This document shows, piece after piece, positions 2,511 to 33,778 of a DNA stretch of 64,000 nt. Location of the stretch: positions 930,001-994,000 of the forward strand of contig NZ_CP089468.1 of assembly GCF_021233435.1 (NCBI RefSeq), given 5' to 3'. The first letter of the stretch is position 1. Each line of letters starts with the position of its first letter. Under the pieces are notes generated by a model that did not search any database, was not told the origin of the DNA, and saw nothing but the letters and a program-made list of their open reading frames with translations. Origin of the DNA: Halobacterium noricense. Its GTDB lineage: Archaea > Halobacteriota > Halobacteria > Halobacteriales > Halobacteriaceae. Made by a program: the position numbers and the translations under genes.

Positions 2511-4049
2511 ATGTGCTCAGGCTTCCTTCCTGAGGTAATGCCTGTTGGGGACTGGAGCGAGGAATTTCGTAGCCGAACGATTCGCGTTCTCCACGCCGAC
2601 AGCGACGAGACGTTCGCCTCGCTCACAGCCTCCTACCTCGAACGAGGGACGGACCGGTTCGAAGTCACGCACACGGTGACGCGCGAAGACACCGTCGACG
2701 CGCTCTCGACGGCGGACGTCGACTGCGTCGTCTCCGCGTACACGTTCCCCGACGGGAACGGCATCGAACTCCTCAAGCGCATCCGCGAAGCCCATCCGCG
2801 ACTGCCGTTCATCCTCTACACCGGCAAGGGCAGCGAGGAAATCGCCAGCGACGCCATCTCCGCCGGCGTCACGGACTACATCCAGAAACGCGCCGGTGCC
2901 GAACAGTACGAAGTGCTCGCCAACCGCATCGAGAACGCCGTCGAGAAATGCCGCTCCGAGCGCGAACTCGCGGACCAAAACCGCCGCCTCGCAACGCTCA
3001 TCACCAACCTCCCCGGGATGGTGTACCGCTGCGAGAACGACCCCGGCTGGCCGATGGAGTTCGTCGGCGGCGAATGCGAGCAACTCAGCGGCTACGACGC
3101 CGCCGCGCTCGAACGCGGCGACGTCCGCTGGGGCGAAGACGTCATCCACCCCGACGACCGCGGGTCGGTTTGGGCGACCGTTCAGACGGCTATTGCTGAC
3201 GAGCAGTCCTTCGAGGTCACGTACCGCATCCGGACTGCCGACGGCGACCGGCGGCACGTCTGGGAGCGCGGCCGCGGCGTCCCCGACGAGAACAGCGACG
3301 TCGTGGCCATCGAGGGGTTCATCACGGACGTCACCGAGCACGTCGAACGCGAACGCGAACTCCGCCGCCAGCGCAACCGCCTCGACGAATTCGCGTCCAT
3401 CGTCAGCCACGACCTCCGAAACCCCCTGAACGTCGCTGACGGCCGCCTCGAACTCGCTCGCGACGACTGTAACAGCGAACATCTCGACGACGTCGCCGCC
3501 GCCCACGACCGCATGGCGGCGCTCATCGACGACCTGCTCGCGCTCGCGCGGTCGGACGCCGCCATCACCGACCCCGATAGAGTGTCGCTACACGACGTCG
3601 CGACGGACTGCTGGAGGAGCGTCGAGACACCCACGGCGACGCTGCGAGTCGACGGCGAAACGACGGTGTTCGCGGACCGCTCGCAGCTCCGCCGGCTCTT
3701 CGGGAACCTGTTCCGGAATGCTGTGGAACACGGTTCCACAGACCCCCAGAACGCGAAGCGTTCTGAGGATGCCGTCGAACACGGCTCGGCGCAGTCCGAC
3801 GACTGCGTCACGGTCCGTGTCGGCGACCTCGACGACGGCTTCTACGTCGAGGACGACGGCCCAGGCATCCCCGCCGGCGACCGCGAGCGCGTCTTCGAGT
3901 ACGGCTACTCGACGGACGACCGCGGAACCGGCATCGGGCTCAGCATCGTCGCGGAGCTCGTGGACGCCCACGGCTGGAGCATCGAGATTACTGACGGCGA
4001 AACGGGCGGGACGCGCTTCGAAATCACGGGCGTCGAAACCGCGGACTAG
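2511..4049 (+). CDS. Hybrid sensor histidine kinase: receiver-PAS-HisKA-HATPase, with palindromic insert
   Basis: A soluble 512-residue signalling protein. Residues about 22-140 form a response-regulator receiver, 160-290 a PAS fold, about 295-360 the HisKA dimerisation domain with phospho-acceptor His in SIVSHDLRNP, and 370-510 the HATPase (N-box NLFRNAVEHG, G1 DDGPGIP, G2 GTGIGLS). In the receiver the usual phospho-Asp (haloarchaeal VVSDY) is Ala (VVSAY, Ala76, codon 2736-2738), so it is unlikely to be phosphorylated normally. Directly after the N-box an extra segment repeats AVEHGS and coincides with two DNA hairpins (3721-3765). ATG 2511 is placed for a near-leaderless message; ATG 2538, just after GAGGT, is an alternative start. 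Confidence 0.9.
   Translation: MCSGFLPEVMPVGDWSEEFRSRTIRVLHADSDETFASLTASYLERGTDRFEVTHTVTREDTVDALSTADVDCVVSAYTFPDGNGIELLKRIREAHPRLPFILYTGKGSEEIASDAISAGVTDYIQKRAGAEQYEVLANRIENAVEKCRSERELADQNRRLATLITNLPGMVYRCENDPGWPMEFVGGECEQLSGYDAAALERGDVRWGEDVIHPDDRGSVWATVQTAIADEQSFEVTYRIRTADGDRRHVWERGRGVPDENSDVVAIEGFITDVTEHVERERELRRQRNRLDEFASIVSHDLRNPLNVADGRLELARDDCNSEHLDDVAAAHDRMAALIDDLLALARSDAAITDPDRVSLHDVATDCWRSVETPTATLRVDGETTVFADRSQLRRLFGNLFRNAVEHGSTDPQNAKRSEDAVEHGSAQSDDCVTVRVGDLDDGFYVEDDGPGIPAGDRERVFEYGYSTDDRGTGIGLSIVAELVDAHGWSIEITDGETGGTRFEITGVETAD
3721..3765 (+). repeat. In-frame 45-nt double-hairpin insertion in histidine kinase gene
   Basis: Two perfect inverted repeats stand in tandem: CTGTGGAAC/GTTCCACAG (3721-3729 and 3733-3741, loop ACG) and CAGAACGC/GCGTTCTG (3747-3754 and 3758-3765, loop GAA), separated by 5 nt. 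The unit is 45 nt and keeps the frame. The flanking codons for (N/D)AVEHGS occur at 3717-3737 and again at 3768-3788, so the protein carries an N-box-like duplication 17 codons apart. The same hairpin-5-hairpin layout and total length occur in the nitrite reductase gene at 30413-30457. Confidence 0.8.
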
Positions 4050-27696: not shown

Positions 27697-29016
27697 ATGG
27701 CGCTGATACGGATGACCAAGTACCGGACGCTGTTGCTCGCGACCATCGGGTTCAACTTCTCGTTTCTCATCTGGTTCTCGTTCGCGCCGTTCACGGAGCC
27801 GATGGCCAACGAGTTCGGGCTGTCGCTGGCGGAGATCGGCCTGCTCGCCAGCGCGAACATCTGGCTGGCACCGTTCGGGCGCGCGCTGACCGGCTGGCTC
27901 TCGGACAAATTCGGCGCGCCGTCGGTGTTCGCCATCGTGTTGGGGTACGTCGGCGTGTTCTCCATCGCGTCGGCGTTCGCGCAGTCCTACGAGGTGTTCT
28001 TCGTCGAGCGCCTCATCGTCGCGACGGCGGGCATCACGTTCGTCGTCGGCATCCAGCACGTCGCGGAGTGGTTCGAGGAGGAGAACCTCGGGCTCGCGGA
28101 GGGCATCTACGCGGGCGTCGGGAACGCTGGCGCTGCGGGTGGCGCGCTCATTCTCCCGCGCGTGTTCGGGACGAACTGGAACGGCCCGCTGTTCTCGACG
28201 AACTGGCGGGCGGCGTTCTTCTACACGGGCATCGTCTCGATTCTGCTCGGGGTGACGTACTTCACGCTCGGGGAGGCCGCCAAGAGCGAGGAGAAACGCC
28301 AGGCGACCAAGGACAGCGCGAGCTTCGGGGGCTGGGTGCACACCGCCACCCGGTACGGGACGCTCGTCCTCGCGCTCGCGTACGTGATGACGTTCGGCCT
28401 CGAACTGTCGATGAACGGCTGGCTCGCGACCTACTACCGCGAGGGATTCGACACGAACAACCTCGTGCTCGCGAGCACGTTCGCGGCGACGTTCTCCGTC
28501 GCGGCAGGCCTGCTGCGGCCCATCGGCGGCTACGTCAGCGACCGGCTGGCGCGCGCCGAGCGTAACATCCTCCCGTTCTTCACGGGCCACTACCGCGAGC
28601 AGTGGACGTTCACGGCGATGTCGTTCGTCGTCGTCGCGATGTTCGGGATGACGCTCGCCGGAATGTCGGGCGAGGTGTTGCTCGCGGTCGGCGCGGGGTT
28701 CCTCGTCGGGATGGGTTGTGCGTTCGCGGAAGGCGCCATCTTCGCACAGGTGCCCGCGATGTTCCCGAACAGTTCGGGGGCGGTCGCGGGCGTCGTCGGC
28801 GGCGTCGGCACCATCGGCGGCATCGTCTACCCGCTGGTGTACTCGGCGCAGTTCATGCCGAACCTCCACACGGGCTACTCGGTGGTCGCGGCGTCGATGA
28901 TTCCCATCCTGGTGTTGACCGCGTGGGTGTTCCAGCCGAGAATCGCGAGCGTCGCCAACGAGGCCGGCTTCGGCGACTCGACGTCGTCGGCGGTCGAAGC
29001 GCCGGGTGACGACTGA
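27697..29016 (+). CDS. narK: Nitrate/nitrite transporter of the NarK/NasB type (MFS)
   Basis: A 439-residue MFS protein with about 12 membrane helices. The N terminus [18 protein letters not shown] and the segment [20 protein letters not shown] with [11 protein letters not shown] are NNP-family (nitrate porter) features, and the conserved Gly-rich nitrate signature recurs late ([20 protein letters not shown]). It imports nitrate for assimilation. ATG 27697 is used; ATG 27712 (MTKYRTLLL) is an alternative. The stop TGA overlaps the mobA start by one base (TGATG). The context with mobA, nitrite reductase and nasA matches the nas cluster of Haloferax mediterranei (there called nasB). Confidence 0.92.
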
Positions 29017-29597
29017 TGCGGACGGGGCTCGTGCTCGCGGGCGGCCACTCGACGCGCTTCGGCGAGGCGGACAAGTCCGTCGCCGCCGTCGACGAACAAC
29101 CGATGGTGCGCCGCGTCGCCGAGCGAGTCGACAGTGTCACCGACGAGCTCGTCGTGAATTGCCGGGACGAGCAGCGCGCTGCGATTACAGAGGCCCTCGA
29201 CGGCCTCGACTATCGGCTGGCCGTCGACCCGATTCCCGACGAGGGCCCCGTTGCGGGAATGCGGACCGGGCTCCGGGTCGCGCGCGGCGACGCGGTCGCC
29301 GTCGTCGCCTGTGACATGCCGCTGGCCGACCCGGAGTTGTTCGAGCGACTCTTCGAGCGTGCGGACACCGCCGCGGTCCCGCGTGCAGACGGCCACCTCC
29401 AGCCGCTGCACGCCGTCTACGGCCGCCACGCGGCGCGGTTCGCGTGCGACCGGACGCTCGCGAGCGGGTCGCGTCGGCTGGCCGAGGCGCTCGCGCGCCT
29501 CGACCCAGTGGTCGTCGACGTCGCCTCGGAAGACCCGTTCACGAACGTCAACACGAAGGGTGATTTAGTGGGCGTACGTGGGGCACTCGGCGGGTAG
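29016..29597 (+). CDS. mobA: Molybdenum cofactor guanylyltransferase MobA
   Basis: A 193-residue nucleotidyltransferase. The signature LAGGHSTRFGEADKS (residues 7-21) binds GTP, and VVACDMPLADPELF (about 93-106) holds the Mg-binding Asp. MobA attaches GMP to Mo-molybdopterin to make the MGD cofactor needed by the nitrate reductase NasA encoded downstream; in haloarchaeal nas clusters this gene has been called nasC. It is translationally coupled to narK by the TGATG overlap. Confidence 0.9.
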   Translation: MRTGLVLAGGHSTRFGEADKSVAAVDEQPMVRRVAERVDSVTDELVVNCRDEQRAAITEALDGLDYRLAVDPIPDEGPVAGMRTGLRVARGDAVAVVACDMPLADPELFERLFERADTAAVPRADGHLQPLHAVYGRHAARFACDRTLASGSRRLAEALARLDPVVVDVASEDPFTNVNTKGDLVGVRGALGG

Positions 29598-29690: not shown

Positions 29691-29733
29691 TCTAGACGAG
29701 AGACTCATCTGACTGTACTAGACGCGACGGTTG

Positions 29734-29749
29734 TCCGGATATTTCCGGA
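29734..29749 (+). promoter_or_regulatory. TCCGGA-N4-TCCGGA repeat in nirA leader
   Basis: Two palindromic hexamers TCCGGA (29734-29739 and 29744-29749) flank TATT, 24 nt before the nirA start. It lies downstream of the predicted transcription start, so it could be a repressor site or an RNA hairpin that affects translation of the nitrite reductase message. Confidence 0.4.
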
Positions 29750-29773
29750 AAACAAGCCCAAACACAAACCACG

Positions 29774-31597
29774 ATGGCACACAAGAAAGAAGAGTGGAAG
29801 GCCGAGCAGTACGGTGACGAAGTCAGAGCACGGCTCGAGGAGTTCGCCGAGCGCGGTTGGGAGGCGATTCCCGAGGAGGAACACGACGAGTGGTTCTCCC
29901 GGTTCAAGTTCTGGGGGGTGTTCCACCAGCGCGGCGGCCAGGAGAGCTACTTCATGATGCGGTTGACCAACTGCGGCGGCGTCCTCGAACCCGACCAACT
30001 CCGGGCCATCGGCGAGGTCGCCCGCGACTACGCGCAGGGGCCCGCCGAGAACCCCGAATTCGGGAACGGGTGGATCGACCTCACGACCCGCCAGTCCATC
30101 CAACTGCACTGGCTCAAACTCGAGGACATCCCCGAAATCTGGGAGAAACTCGAAGCCGTCGGCGTCTCCTCGCGCTCGGCGGGCGGGGACACGATGCGCA
30201 ACATCTCGGGCTGTCCGGTCGCCGGGAAAGCAGAGGAGTACGTCGAGAGCCGCGAACTCCTGGACGAGATTCAGGACGGCATCCGCGGGGACGACGACCT
30301 CGCGAACATGCCCCGGAAGTTCAACATCTCGGTGACGGGCTGCCGGCAGGGCTGCGCGCAGGACGCGCTCAACGACATCGGCCTCGAACCCGCGCACAAA
30401 TTCGTCGACACCGATGAGCAGAGCTCATCGAGCAATCGGGAATCACAGATTCCCGATAATGGGGAGGAGGTCGAGGGCTTCAACGTCCGCGCCGGCGGCG
30501 GGCTCGGCGGCCGCGAGCCTCGCGCCGCACGCCCGCTGGACATCTTCGTCACGCGCGACCAGGCCTACGACACCGTTCGCGCGTTCGTCGAACTGTACCA
30601 CGAGGAGGGCAACCGCGAGAACCGCTCGAAGAACCGCGGGCGCTTCTTCGTCGACGAGTGGGGCACCGACGAGATTCGCGAGGCGCTCGACGAGCGCCTG
30701 GATTTCGACCTCGAATCCGCGGGCACCGACTTCCGCGGCGAGTACACGTACAACGCCGGCAAGCCGTCCGAGCGCGGCGCACACGACCACGTCGGCGTCT
30801 ACGACCAGACGGACGGGCAGAACTACGTCGGAATCAGCGTCGCCCTCGGGCGGCTGCGCGCCGACGAAGCAATCGAACTTGCGGACCTCGCCGACGAGTA
30901 CGGCAGCGGGGAAGTCCGCTTGACGCGCCGGCAGAACCCCATCATCACGGACGTCGCGGACGAGGACCTCGACGACCTGCTCGCGGAGCCGCTGCTGGAC
31001 AAACACGAGCCCGAGCCCAACCCCTTCGAGCAGGGCGCGATGGCCTGCACGGGCACGGAGTTCTGCTCGCTCGCGCTCACGGAGACGAAGGCGCGGATGG
31101 CGCGGTTGCTGCGCTGGCTCGGGGACAACGTCGAGGTCCCCGACGACGTCGACCGCATCAAGATGCACTTCTCGGGCTGCACCGCGGACTGCGGGCAGGC
31201 GATGACCGCGGACATCGGCCTGCAGGGGATGCGCGCACGCAAGGACGGCGAGATGGTCGAAGCTGTCGACGTCGGCGTCGGCGGCGGCGTCGGCGAGGAG
31301 CCGACGTTCATCGACTGGGTGCGCCAGCGCGTTCCCGCCGACGAACTCCCGGGAATGATTGCGAACCTCGTGCGGGCGTTCGCCGCGCTCCGCGAGGACG
31401 GCCAGACGTTCCGCGAGTGGGTGGAGGCGACCGGCCACGAGACTATCGTCGAACTCGCGGAACCCGAGGAAGTCGAGGGGTACACCGACCCCTGCCTCTA
31501 CGACGCCAAGCAGTCCTGGTACCCGTTCGCGGAGGGAGACAGTCCGGCACCGACCGCCCCAGACGGCACGCCGCTGGCCACCGAGAGCGATGACTGA
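29774..31597 (+). CDS. nirA: Ferredoxin-dependent nitrite reductase (siroheme/4Fe-4S)
   Basis: A 607-residue assimilatory nitrite reductase that reduces nitrite to ammonium using ferredoxin. The duplicated nitrite/sulfite-reductase fold is clear. The siroheme/4Fe-4S cysteines lie in ACTGTEFCSLA (C-x5-C, about residue 424-430) and SGCTADCGQ (C-x3-C, about 469-473). NISGCPVAGK and NISVTGCRQGCAQD are the first-half equivalents. Residues about 213-228 (DEQSSSSNRESQIPDN) are absent from the otherwise conserved line GLEPAHKFV...GEEVEGFNVR and come from a double-hairpin insertion (30413-30457). The stop overlaps the start of a 32-aa ORF. In Haloferax the gene is nasD. Confidence 0.92.
   Translation: MAHKKEEWKAEQYGDEVRARLEEFAERGWEAIPEEEHDEWFSRFKFWGVFHQRGGQESYFMMRLTNCGGVLEPDQLRAIGEVARDYAQGPAENPEFGNGWIDLTTRQSIQLHWLKLEDIPEIWEKLEAVGVSSRSAGGDTMRNISGCPVAGKAEEYVESRELLDEIQDGIRGDDDLANMPRKFNISVTGCRQGCAQDALNDIGLEPAHKFVDTDEQSSSSNRESQIPDNGEEVEGFNVRAGGGLGGREPRAARPLDIFVTRDQAYDTVRAFVELYHEEGNRENRSKNRGRFFVDEWGTDEIREALDERLDFDLESAGTDFRGEYTYNAGKPSERGAHDHVGVYDQTDGQNYVGISVALGRLRADEAIELADLADEYGSGEVRLTRRQNPIITDVADEDLDDLLAEPLLDKHEPEPNPFEQGAMACTGTEFCSLALTETKARMARLLRWLGDNVEVPDDVDRIKMHFSGCTADCGQAMTADIGLQGMRARKDGEMVEAVDVGVGGGVGEEPTFIDWVRQRVPADELPGMIANLVRAFAALREDGQTFREWVEATGHETIVELAEPEEVEGYTDPCLYDAKQSWYPFAEGDSPAPTAPDGTPLATESDD
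30413..30457 (+). repeat. In-frame 45-nt double-hairpin insertion in nitrite reductase gene
   Basis: Two perfect inverted repeats stand in tandem: GATGAGC/GCTCATC (30413-30419, 30423-30429, loop AGA) and ATCGGGAATC/GATTCCCGAT (30435-30444, 30448-30457, loop ACA), separated by GAGCA. Total 45 nt, frame kept. Arm sequences differ from those at 3721-3765, but layout (3-nt loops, 5-nt spacer, 45-nt total) is identical. It encodes a hydrophilic Ser/Asn/Gln stretch, unlike the rest of the enzyme, between two conserved segments and probably in a surface loop. Confidence 0.8.
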
Positions 31598-31688
31598 CGA
31601 CGCGACGGTGTCGACGGCGCCGATGGACGTCGCCCCCGAACTGTTCCCGGCGAACACCGACCACTCCGCCGAGGTGGACGACGCGTGA
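31590..31688 (+). CDS. 32-residue ORF between nirA and nasA
   Basis: A very short acidic protein that starts inside the nirA stop region (ATGACTGA) and ends by overlapping the GTG start of nasA (GTGAGTGA-type junction), so translation could be coupled on both sides. The sequence has no Cys, no membrane segment and an SLiM-like centre (VAPELFPANTD). It may be a real small protein of the nitrate assimilation operon or a coupling leader for nasA. I do not recognise a family. Confidence 0.5.
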   Translation: MTDDATVSTAPMDVAPELFPANTDHSAEVDDA

Positions 31689-33778
31689 GTGAGCCGGTCC
31701 AGACCACGTGCATGCGGTGTGCGGTCGGCTGCGGCCACCTGACCGACCGCGTGGACGCCGGCTACGGCATCGGGACGGTGCGCGGTGACGTCACTCACCC
31801 CGTCAACCGCGGGCTGGCGTGCTCGCGCGGCGTCGAGGAGACGAAATCCCCCGAGGGCACGTGGTTGACGCGCCCACTCGTACGGATGGACGGCGACCTC
31901 CAGCCGACGACGTGGGACGTGGCGCTCTCGCACATCGCCAACGAGTTCGGGGCAGCCCTCGACCGCGACCACGACAGCGTCGCCGTGCTCGGGAGCGGCC
32001 AGCAGACCAACGAGGCGGCGTACGCGCTCGGCAAACTCGCACGCGGCGGGTTCGGCACGCGCTACTACGACGCCAACACCACGCTCTGCATGGCGAGCGC
32101 GGTCACCGCCTACTACGACGCGTTCGGCAGCGACGCGCCGCCGTGCACGTACGACGACATCGAGGACGCGAAGACGCACGTCGTCTGGGGCGCGAACCCG
32201 GCGGTCGCCCACCCGGTGATGTTCCGCTGGATCTCCGAGAGCGCGACCGCCGACGACAGCGAACTCGTAGTCGTGGACCCGGTCGGCACGAAGACCGCCC
32301 AGGGAGCCGACGAACACGTCGCGCTCGAACCGGGGACGGACCTCGCGCTCGCGCGGGCCGTGCTCGCTCGCGTCGTCGAACGCGGCGACGTCGACGAGGA
32401 GTTCGTCGAGGAGGCGACGACGGGGTTCGAGGAGTTACGCGGCGACCTCCCGGACCCGAAGGCGGCAGCAGCGACTGCCGATGTCGATATGGAGACGGTG
32501 GACAAACTCGCTGACGCCTTCCAGGAGGAGACGCTCGTCTACTGGGGGATGGGCGTCAACCAGAGCACACAGGGGACGGAGACGGCGGGCGCGCTCGTGG
32601 ACCTCTGTCTCGCGACCGGGAACCTCGGTCCCGGTACCGGGCCGTTCTCGCTGACCGGGCAGGCGAATTCGATGGGCACGCGCGTGTGTTCCTCGAAGGG
32701 CTCGTGGCCGGGAATGCGGTCGTTCACGGACCCGGACGAGCGTCAGGTCGTCGCAGAGGCGTGGAACGTCCCGGTCGAACGGCTCCCCGACGACCCCGGA
32801 CCGGGGCCGGTCGGCCTCGTGAACGCCATCGACGACGGGCCGGTCGAGGTTGTCTGGACGGTCGCGACGAACCCCGCGGCGGGCCTGCCGGACGCCTCCG
32901 CAGCGCGCGAACACCTCGAAGACGCGTTCCTCGTCGCGCAGGACGCCTTCCACACCGAGACCACGGAACTCGCGGACGTCGTGTTGCCGGCGGCGACGTG
33001 GGGCGAGTCCTCGGGGACGGCGGTGAACATGGAGCGCCGCGTCTCCCGCATCCGGCCAGCGTCGGACCTCGTGCCGGACGTCCGCACCGACCTCGACATC
33101 ATCACGACCATCGGCGAGCTGCTCGTGCCCGGACTCCTCGGCGACCCCGACCCCCGGGACATCTTCGACGAACTCGCGGCGCTCACCGCGGGCACGCTGG
33201 CGGACCTCTCGGGCATCAGTTACGCGCGCCTCGACGACCAGCAAGCGGTCAGGTGGCCCGCGCCGGACGCCGTCTCGGAGGGCGGCTACCGCTACTACGA
33301 CGACGGCGATTGGTCGTTCCCGACGCCCTCCGGGAAAGCCCGGTTCTCCACGGGACGCCACGAGGGCCTCCCGGAGCCGACCAACGAGACGTACCCGCTG
33401 ACGCTGACGACCGCCCGCGAGGCGGACGGTTACAACACGGGCGTGCGCTCACGGGGCGAGGACGCGCCAGCGAACCCGCTCGCGCGAATCAACCCCGAGA
33501 CCATCGAAGCCGCCGACATCTCGGCGGACGCCGACGTCGCGGTCGTCGAATCTCGCCGCGCGAACGTCCCCGTCCGCGTGGAGGTCGACGATGCCGTGCC
33601 CACGGGCCTCGTCTGGCTGCCGATTCACCACCCGGAGACGAACGCGCTGACGCTCCCCGAGACCGACCCCCGCTCGGACGAGCCGAACTTCAAGCAGTGC
33701 GCGGTGCGCGTGCGGCCGGTCACCGACGAGGCGGTCGCGGGCACGCTTGGGGACGCGGAGGCGCCCGCCGACGACTGA
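31685..33778 (+). CDS. nasA: Assimilatory nitrate reductase, molybdopterin (bis-MGD) oxidoreductase
   Basis: A 697-residue molybdopterin oxidoreductase that reduces nitrate to nitrite in the cytoplasm. The N-terminal 4Fe-4S site is TCMRCAVGCGH with the fourth Cys in GLACSRGVEE. The Mo-binding core follows (SGQQTNEAAYALGKLAR; CMASAVTAYYDAFGSDAPP), and the C-terminal MopB-binding beta-barrel domain starts near residue 555. No signal peptide is present, as expected for an assimilatory enzyme. The GTG start overlaps the 32-aa ORF. Electrons probably come from ferredoxin; no NAD(P)H-binding module is fused. Confidence 0.92.
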   Translation: MSEPVQTTCMRCAVGCGHLTDRVDAGYGIGTVRGDVTHPVNRGLACSRGVEETKSPEGTWLTRPLVRMDGDLQPTTWDVALSHIANEFGAALDRDHDSVAVLGSGQQTNEAAYALGKLARGGFGTRYYDANTTLCMASAVTAYYDAFGSDAPPCTYDDIEDAKTHVVWGANPAVAHPVMFRWISESATADDSELVVVDPVGTKTAQGADEHVALEPGTDLALARAVLARVVERGDVDEEFVEEATTGFEELRGDLPDPKAAAATADVDMETVDKLADAFQEETLVYWGMGVNQSTQGTETAGALVDLCLATGNLGPGTGPFSLTGQANSMGTRVCSSKGSWPGMRSFTDPDERQVVAEAWNVPVERLPDDPGPGPVGLVNAIDDGPVEVVWTVATNPAAGLPDASAAREHLEDAFLVAQDAFHTETTELADVVLPAATWGESSGTAVNMERRVSRIRPASDLVPDVRTDLDIITTIGELLVPGLLGDPDPRDIFDELAALTAGTLADLSGISYARLDDQQAVRWPAPDAVSEGGYRYYDDGDWSFPTPSGKARFSTGRHEGLPEPTNETYPLTLTTAREADGYNTGVRSRGEDAPANPLARINPETIEAADISADADVAVVESRRANVPVRVEVDDAVPTGLVWLPIHHPETNALTLPETDPRSDEPNFKQCAVRVRPVTDEAVAGTLGDAEAPADD

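Follow-up and report, generated by a model that had tools for sequence, protein, structure and literature searches.

A palindromic insert in the nitrite reductase gene of Halobacterium noricense is one copy of a two-hairpin haloarchaeal element family

The nitrite reductase gene nirA of Halobacterium noricense, which lies in the 64-kb stretch of DNA analyzed here (the window), contains a palindromic segment inside its coding sequence, and this raises the question of what the segment is and how it came to lie there. The nirA product matches solved nitrite reductases, and its best NCBIfam match is PRK09566, ferredoxin-nitrite reductase, with a score under the curated cut-off. A first-pass annotation had called the host an essential metalloenzyme, an attribute that is unsupported for an assimilatory nitrite reductase in a narK-mobA-nirA-nasA group (Table 1), a type of gene that is dispensable in the presence of ammonium. 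As described below, the palindrome is one copy of a haloarchaeal element family, which the first-pass annotation had missed.

The palindrome itself is real and exceeds chance expectation. The RNA fold of positions 30393-30477 has an energy of -33.5 kcal/mol (z -4.76), equaled by 0 of 200 shuffles, and the window holds a single copy of the element versus 0 expected; no second copy was found in its 64 kb. Both hairpins, CGATGAGC-AGA-GCTCATCG and ATCGGGAATC-ACA-GATTCCCGAT, are perfect. Hairpin 2 has the 10-bp form, compared with 7 bp in the form used for our covariance model R1, which matches positions 30407-30460 with 47.6 bits. The segment had been described as one palindrome at 30413-30457 adding about 16 residues; it is indeed palindromic and inserted in frame, but it consists of two hairpins joined by AGCA, and the empty site in relatives sets its extent at 51 bp, or 17 codons.

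Table 1. Coordinates of nirA, its neighbors and the parts of the inserted element (positions in the window; a slash marks the point of insertion)
Feature	Position	Strand	Description	Basis
NarK-like MFS transporter	27697..29016	+	upstream neighbor	NCBIfam TIGR00886, under cut-off
MobA-like protein	29016..29597	+	upstream neighbor	NCBIfam TIGR02665, under cut-off
nirA	29774..31597	+	ferredoxin-type assimilatory nitrite reductase, 607 aa, insert-bearing	ORF
Asp codon GAC preceding the element	30407..30409	+		empty sites GTC GAC/GGC (L068) and ATC GAC/GGC (L031)
Inserted palindromic element TDEQSSSSNRESQIPDN	30410..30460	+	51 bp, 17 codons	presence/absence in nirA of relatives
Hairpin 1	30412..30430	+	arms 30412-30419 and 30423-30430, loop AGA	fold and family alignment
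Unpaired linker AGCA	30431..30434	+		family alignment, where the seed pattern fixed the linker
Hairpin 2	30435..30457	+	arms 30435-30444 and 30448-30457, loop ACA	fold and model alignment
Terminal codon AAT	30458..30460	+	GAC here in 42/44 compared copies and in the G008 nirA copy	
NasA assimilatory nitrate reductase	31685..33778	+	downstream neighbor	NCBIfam NF041323, above cut-off

In the nirA gene of a relative from the same genus (L068), GTC GAC is followed directly by GGC GAA, a clean empty site, and another gene among the nearest on the tree (L067), with GAG in place of the GAC codon, is likewise 51 bp shorter. The other insert-bearing nirA genes, from Halobacterium (L066), Halosimplex carlsbadense (L030), and Halorubrum lipolyticum, halophilum and salipaludis (L048, L051, and L063), all carry the insert after the same codon; it has 51 bp and related arms in L066 and L030, and 45 bp and other arms in Halorubrum. 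Comparison of the two copies in Halobacterium shows that one outer pair in hairpin 2 has changed on both sides (ATCGGG..CCCGAT to ACCGGG..CCCGGT). On a quick NirA tree of 36 rows, built with the insert segment cut out and with some forks open (5 of the 41 nirA loci were unparsed), the insert is present in 6 rows and absent from 30, the fewest changes are six, and each carrier groups with insert-free relatives of its own genus. The three Halorubrum inserts encode one identical peptide, so that one gain with losses or transfers explains them as well as three gains. The shared position in three genera would also fit a loop already present in the ancestral haloarchaeal NirA and lost on several occasions. 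Because 30 of the 36 rows, close relatives of every carrier included, are without the insert, it is not an ancestral conserved loop, and the comparison of sister strains proposed in the first-pass annotation thus speaks for an insertion. The scarcity of residues at this place in tobacco nitrite reductase and the match of the insert to copies in unrelated genes argue likewise; by the nirA tree and the empty sites, an ancestral loop is strongly disfavored, and we regard it as having next to no probability.

AlphaFold prediction with 34 haloarchaeal NirAs places residues 213-229 between the strands 202-212 and 230-240, with pLDDT below 50 for residues 214-227. The model is only moderate (mean pLDDT 67.8, pTM 0.68), and nitrite reductases top its Foldseek list with target-normalised TM scores of 0.60-0.63. 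In a sequence alignment, the tobacco enzyme (3b0g) has few residues at the place of the insert (...PATKDGRFGFN...). The prediction for the insert is accordingly a disordered loop that connects two strands, and this placement, together with the tobacco sequence, suggests that the loop is likely exposed. Structure modeling had been proposed as a check for a solvent loop, and it yields a low-confidence loop joining two strands, a predicted location that lends no support to the earlier placement in a core region. The claim that an in-frame loop insertion is tolerated is supported by the predicted loop, by the tobacco enzyme, and by the relatives that are without the insert. The cluster cysteines are present as had been noted: C425, C431, C469, and C473, which we take to be the cluster-holding residues, are invariant in 34 aligned haloarchaeal NirAs. 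A second NirA/SirA-like paralogue in the same genome (L080, C1:2822848-2824590), 55% identical, has no insert at this place.

Members of the family have the form codon-arm1(7)-NNN-arm1'-GAGCA-arm2(7 or 10)-NNN-arm2'-GAC, measure 45 or 51 bp, and add a loop of 15 to 17 residues to their host proteins. The pattern GAGCAATC-N-GATGAC prescribes the linker and three outer bases of hairpin 2 and places no constraint on hairpin 1; it occurs in 201 of the 391 genomes of the class, versus about 30 for the reversed control pattern, and a hairpin lies directly 5' of the linker in 43 of 45 rows found by a script that required hairpin 2 and not hairpin 1. In 18 aligned 48-nt copies, 270 of 270 cells are paired; these seeds were picked for pairing, which makes the percentage partly a product of construction but not the paired changes. 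Nine of the 15 pairs are changed on both sides, compared with a mean of 3.9 in shuffles and 0-4 with slid partners. Since pairing is kept while the arm sequence changes, the fold, whether of DNA or RNA, is what the element appears to need.

At E<=1e-8, the covariance model built from these 18 copies, all of one length, has matches in 283 of 391 Halobacteria genomes, representing 68 of 86 genera; the other 108 genomes have no match at this threshold. At most 15 candidates were scored per genome, and copy numbers are therefore lower bounds; the H. noricense genome has at least five copies at 1e-8 and at least six at 1e-7. When genomes drawn from the whole phylum were searched at 1e-7, 36 of 294 gave a match, all of them from the order of the window or nearer; 17 non-matching genomes of this order are listed, and the 238 genomes outside the list should fall outside the order, since the list is sorted by kinship. 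In GC-rich DNA, the model calls too many matches and its E-values run too low; matches weaker than 1e-7 were not used, and the count of 368/391 at E<=0.01 was set aside for this reason. Among 110 strong matches, 98 are free of Watson-Crick mismatches in the 15 pairs and 12 have one, and the linker reads AGCA, GGCA, or AGAA, although the conservation of linker and arms and the pairing in these matches stem partly from selection, the model seeds having been chosen by linker and arms. The Halobacterium copies L307, L308, L316, and L317 are without the outer pair of hairpin 1. At gathering scores, Rfam gave no family for 11 loci or for window positions 29700-31700, and no tRNA was found in six of the non-coding loci. 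One exact match to the hairpin-2 pattern among viral contigs was judged to be chance, as no hairpin 1 adjoins it, and a search of plasmids with a 21-residue peptide, a weak test given the short query, returned no match.

Clean empty sites are found well beyond nirA. For nine of ten filled copies compared, from eight genes, the one to three relatives read per site are without exactly 45 bp (51 in nirA), and 49-60 of the 60 flanking positions are identical. The ETF gene presents the same kind of empty site, with its row off register: relatives have GGC GAC GAC GTC versus GGC GAC-insert-GAC GTC in the filled gene. Within Halobacterium, empty sites were read for an epimerase, a zincin, a HerA-like gene (in two genomes), DUF302, HisC, V-ATPase subunit E, and L318. 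The empty site has one codon, mostly GAC and otherwise CAC, GAT, or GAG, versus 16 codons in the filled gene. At the epimerase and HisC sites, one of 13 Halobacterium genomes is filled, and the other 12 are shorter by 14-16 codons as estimated from match lengths.

The sites share a sequence preference. Of 44 copies that do not belong to the kinase class, 38 have GAC, which makes up 8% of codons, as the 5' codon, and 42 have it as the 3' codon. The base after the 3' codon is G in 40 of the 44, A in four, and never C or T (p 1.3e-7, against an expectation for G of 54% taken from 990 other GAC codons of the same genes); the 3' junctions comprise 39 GACG, 3 GACA, 1 GATA, and 1 AACG. The preferred site is thus a GAC codon followed by G, which reads CGTC, sometimes TGTC, on the other strand. 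The rule that defined this set and the 37-copy set mentioned below dropped kinase-like copies and orthologues, together with some copies from other genes (L278 and L282 among them), and retained HerA (L248, L307) and beta-CASP (L070, L276, L304) more than once.

The copies are biased in phase and orientation. We read 110 of the strongest matches (30 + 80 loci; 96 distinct sequences): 82 are in phase 0 of the longest sense ORF, 16 are antisense in one conserved non-coding context, and 12 have a longer GC-rich ORF in another phase, yet with phase 0 open. In phase 0, six of these 12 look like histidine kinases, and five of the other six either have Pfam support or are orthologues of a gene that does, L285 having no Pfam match. 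The 94 copies taken as coding all lie in one phase and one orientation and are open across the element; by motif, 52 are histidine-kinase N-box-like and 42 lie elsewhere. Across 129 coding copies, the coding frame is the most acidic of the six (mean net charge -2.4 versus -0.4 to +3.3) and hydrophilic (GRAVY -1.57), whereas its zero stops are meaningless, because stop-bearing rows had been removed from this set beforehand.

Of the 43 host ORFs prepared for copies other than those of the kinase N-box class, 40 were scanned; 38 have a Pfam family, with 35 different best families. The hosts include core enzymes, i.e. a class I tRNA synthetase (L092), adenylosuccinate synthetase (L122), aconitase (L300), and a PEP synthase-type enzyme (L256), as well as phosphoglycerate mutase (L098), phosphohexomutase (L129), ThiI (L161), V-type ATPase subunit E (L271), an AMP-binding synthetase (L303), pyridine-nucleotide oxidoreductases (L186, L269), an aminotransferase (L084), ETF (L085), SelR/MsrB (L282), HerA-like proteins (L248, L307), a tRNA-binding domain (L245), and signaling proteins (L229, L288). 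In a loop of a beta-CASP-type protein (L070/L177, L276, L304), copies occupy slightly different positions in different genomes, which suggests repeated insertion into a tolerant loop; L304 has a Pfam assignment, and the other loci look like the same protein. Compound, partly decayed multi-hairpin inserts in coding sequence were also seen in the H. noricense genome (L015, at about 1400-1560, and L005), the latter having 23 exact bases in common with nirA hairpin 1. At 3768-3803, the window has a kinase N-box-like sequence, GATGCCGTCGAACACGGCTCGGCG, that is close to hairpin 1 and a weak model match; the element may have begun at such a sequence or may prefer it.

The distribution could in principle reflect homologous recombination or transfer of insert-bearing alleles, including those of histidine-kinase paralogues, as the main route of spread. 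The shared nirA position in Halobacterium, Halosimplex, and Halorubrum fits allele transfer or a hot spot, L248, L307, and L316 have a HerA-like gene with the insert at one and the same site (L259 looks like the same gene), and recombination between paralogues could spread the 52 N-box-like copies. Tandem arrays of units with 45-bp spacing, whose arms differ between units, occur in histidine-kinase N-box regions (L310, L311, L314) and are likewise of the kind expected from recombination. However, the nirA inserts differ in length and arms between genera, the quick gene tree, some of its forks being open, keeps the carriers among insert-free relatives of their own genus, and the host ORFs of the copies have 35 different Pfam families as best matches. 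We therefore consider spread mainly by recombination or transfer unlikely.

Another candidate origin is a terminal-only PATE, i.e. fused ends of an IS605-type transposon as in Haloquadratum walsbyi. According to the available part of the source (PMC3119063), a 52-bp terminal-only PATE exists and PATEs are without target duplication; the 16 antisense matches share a conserved context, part of which is the 3' region of TnpB-like genes. In the same description, however, one of the two direct palindromes near the termini is left after deletion of the core, whereas the element has two different hairpins and a fixed linker. In 36 Y1/TnpB loci of the H. noricense genome, R1 gave nothing above 19.7 bits and no link to an enzyme. 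A PATE, set apart here by description, is an improbable source.

The antisense hairpin pair is found in a conserved region ending in GGGGAATCCTCGCCCTTTAGGGCGGGGAGGATGTCAA at L166, L167, L170, L171, L175, L181, L228, and L242, and further at L251, L252, L261, L263-L266, and L279. In five of six loci read, L175 being the exception, the region is directly preceded by a TnpB-like C-terminus; L171 and L166 have extra two-hairpin inserts in this region. The H. noricense genome also has a dispersed, mostly uniform repeat (L016-L028), GGGAGAGC-AAC-GCTCTCCC-GAGGCC-TCGGAAATC-NNN-GATTTCCGG and then CGGATTGAAAGGGCGAGG; in 13 loci, the vicinity has no TnpB motif.

Two further explanations concern how the hairpins themselves could arise. 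Arm 1 could be a target duplication with arm 1' as its fold-back copy, and L096, L161, L282, and the kinase N-boxes do look so. The excess of identity over 37 copies is small (4.81 versus 4.45 of 10, p 0.0175) and is carried by a handful, most copies being without clear similarity, and identical arms are found again at targets unrelated to each other; target-templated arms were rejected on this weak signal and appear very improbable. An intron or otherwise removed RNA segment would account for precise insertion in core genes, but the insert is in frame, open, and a multiple of three in length, its fold consists of two closed hairpins with only a short flanking helix, and Rfam has no match. We give an intron hardly any credence.

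Several known families of small palindromes resemble the element in part; the articles cited here were available in part. Rickettsia palindromic elements (RPEs) are palindromic, lie in frame in many unrelated protein genes, and yield translational fusions, and they have about 150 bp (PMC10969869). As compared by description, the haloarchaeal element is likewise palindromic and in frame in protein genes, but has 45 or 51 bp, consists of two separate hairpins with 3-nt loops, and occurs in Archaea. CGTC-tagged REPs, which include RPE-4, RPE-6, and dRS3, have some intragenic copies and no dedicated transposase known (PMC3733652). As in these REPs, CGTC or TGTC adjoins a hairpin that often begins with AT on the other strand (PMC3733652); in the haloarchaeal empty sites read, however, the outer base of the tag is that of the target. 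The REP stem has 8-9 bp and starts with AT pairs; haloarchaeal hairpin 2 has 7 or 10 bp, and many copies start with AT, others with GT, AC, or GC. In the copies inspected, the haloarchaeal loops have 3 nt instead of 4-5, the linker is of the AGCA type, and there is no CCA tail, a form that the model favors; the unit has one tag and a fixed order of two hairpins, while REPs are mostly head-to-head dimers. The element was not filed with the RPEs because of its length, nor with the CGTC REPs because of its loop, tail, and dimer form.

The small mobile repeats of Haloquadratum, PATEs among them, are also short, transposase-free, palindromic or with inverted repeats, haloarchaeal, and without target duplication (PMC3119063), but they are either associated with IS605 ends or use other mobile elements as insertion sites, and in-frame coding insertion is absent from the part of that article available. 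GTAG REPs, hairpin elements thought to be moved in trans by a Y1 transposase, the RAYT (PMC3733652), differ in that no GTAG occurs at the ends of the 18 aligned haloarchaeal copies and in being mostly extragenic, whereas the strong haloarchaeal copies read are mostly intragenic. Intragenic REPs are known in other bacteria (PMC3733652), and coding palindromes have been described in nematomorph mitochondria. The literature matches listed, mainly open-access, include no in-frame palindromic element of haloarchaea. Protein-coding palindromes have reportedly been presented, in the title of a 2002 paper by Ogata, as a unique but recurrent feature of Rickettsia.

Taken together, the nirA insert is most probably a copy of a haloarchaeal DNA element with two hairpins that is, or recently was, mobile. 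Our best reading is that this element works like the Rickettsia palindromic elements and the CGTC-tagged REPs, in Archaea and as a member of neither. A unit of 45 or 51 bp would insert behind a GAC codon, usually one with G as the next base. Copies in the right phase and orientation would add a flexible loop of 15 or 17 residues and survive in active, often core, enzymes, since the unit is a multiple of three with an open, acidic, and hydrophilic frame; copies in other phases would presumably be lost, and selection of this kind may cause the frame bias. The element would spread by transposition, rather than by recombination, and a single-strand DNA transposase acting in trans, such as one of the Y1/IS200 type, could move it; the H. 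noricense genome has six Y1 and 39 TnpB-domain matches as candidates. A more far-reaching reading is a class-wide archaeal palindromic transposon that moves as single-strand DNA by a trans enzyme, targets CGTC opposite the coding strand, remodels core enzymes with acidic loops, has a common ancestry with a hairpin pair in the 3' (omegaRNA) region of TnpB elements, and keeps its hairpins by paired changes; as a whole, we regard this as conceivable but rather doubtful.

For annotators, these results are a warning that an apparent indel loop in a haloarchaeal protein can be an inserted element. The element is an archaeal counterpart of these coding palindromes, spread across most of a class, and its clean empty sites in core enzyme genes amount to natural loop-insertion experiments. 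Several haloarchaea are genetically tractable, and the element opens to testing the question of how small palindromes that encode no transposase are able to spread.
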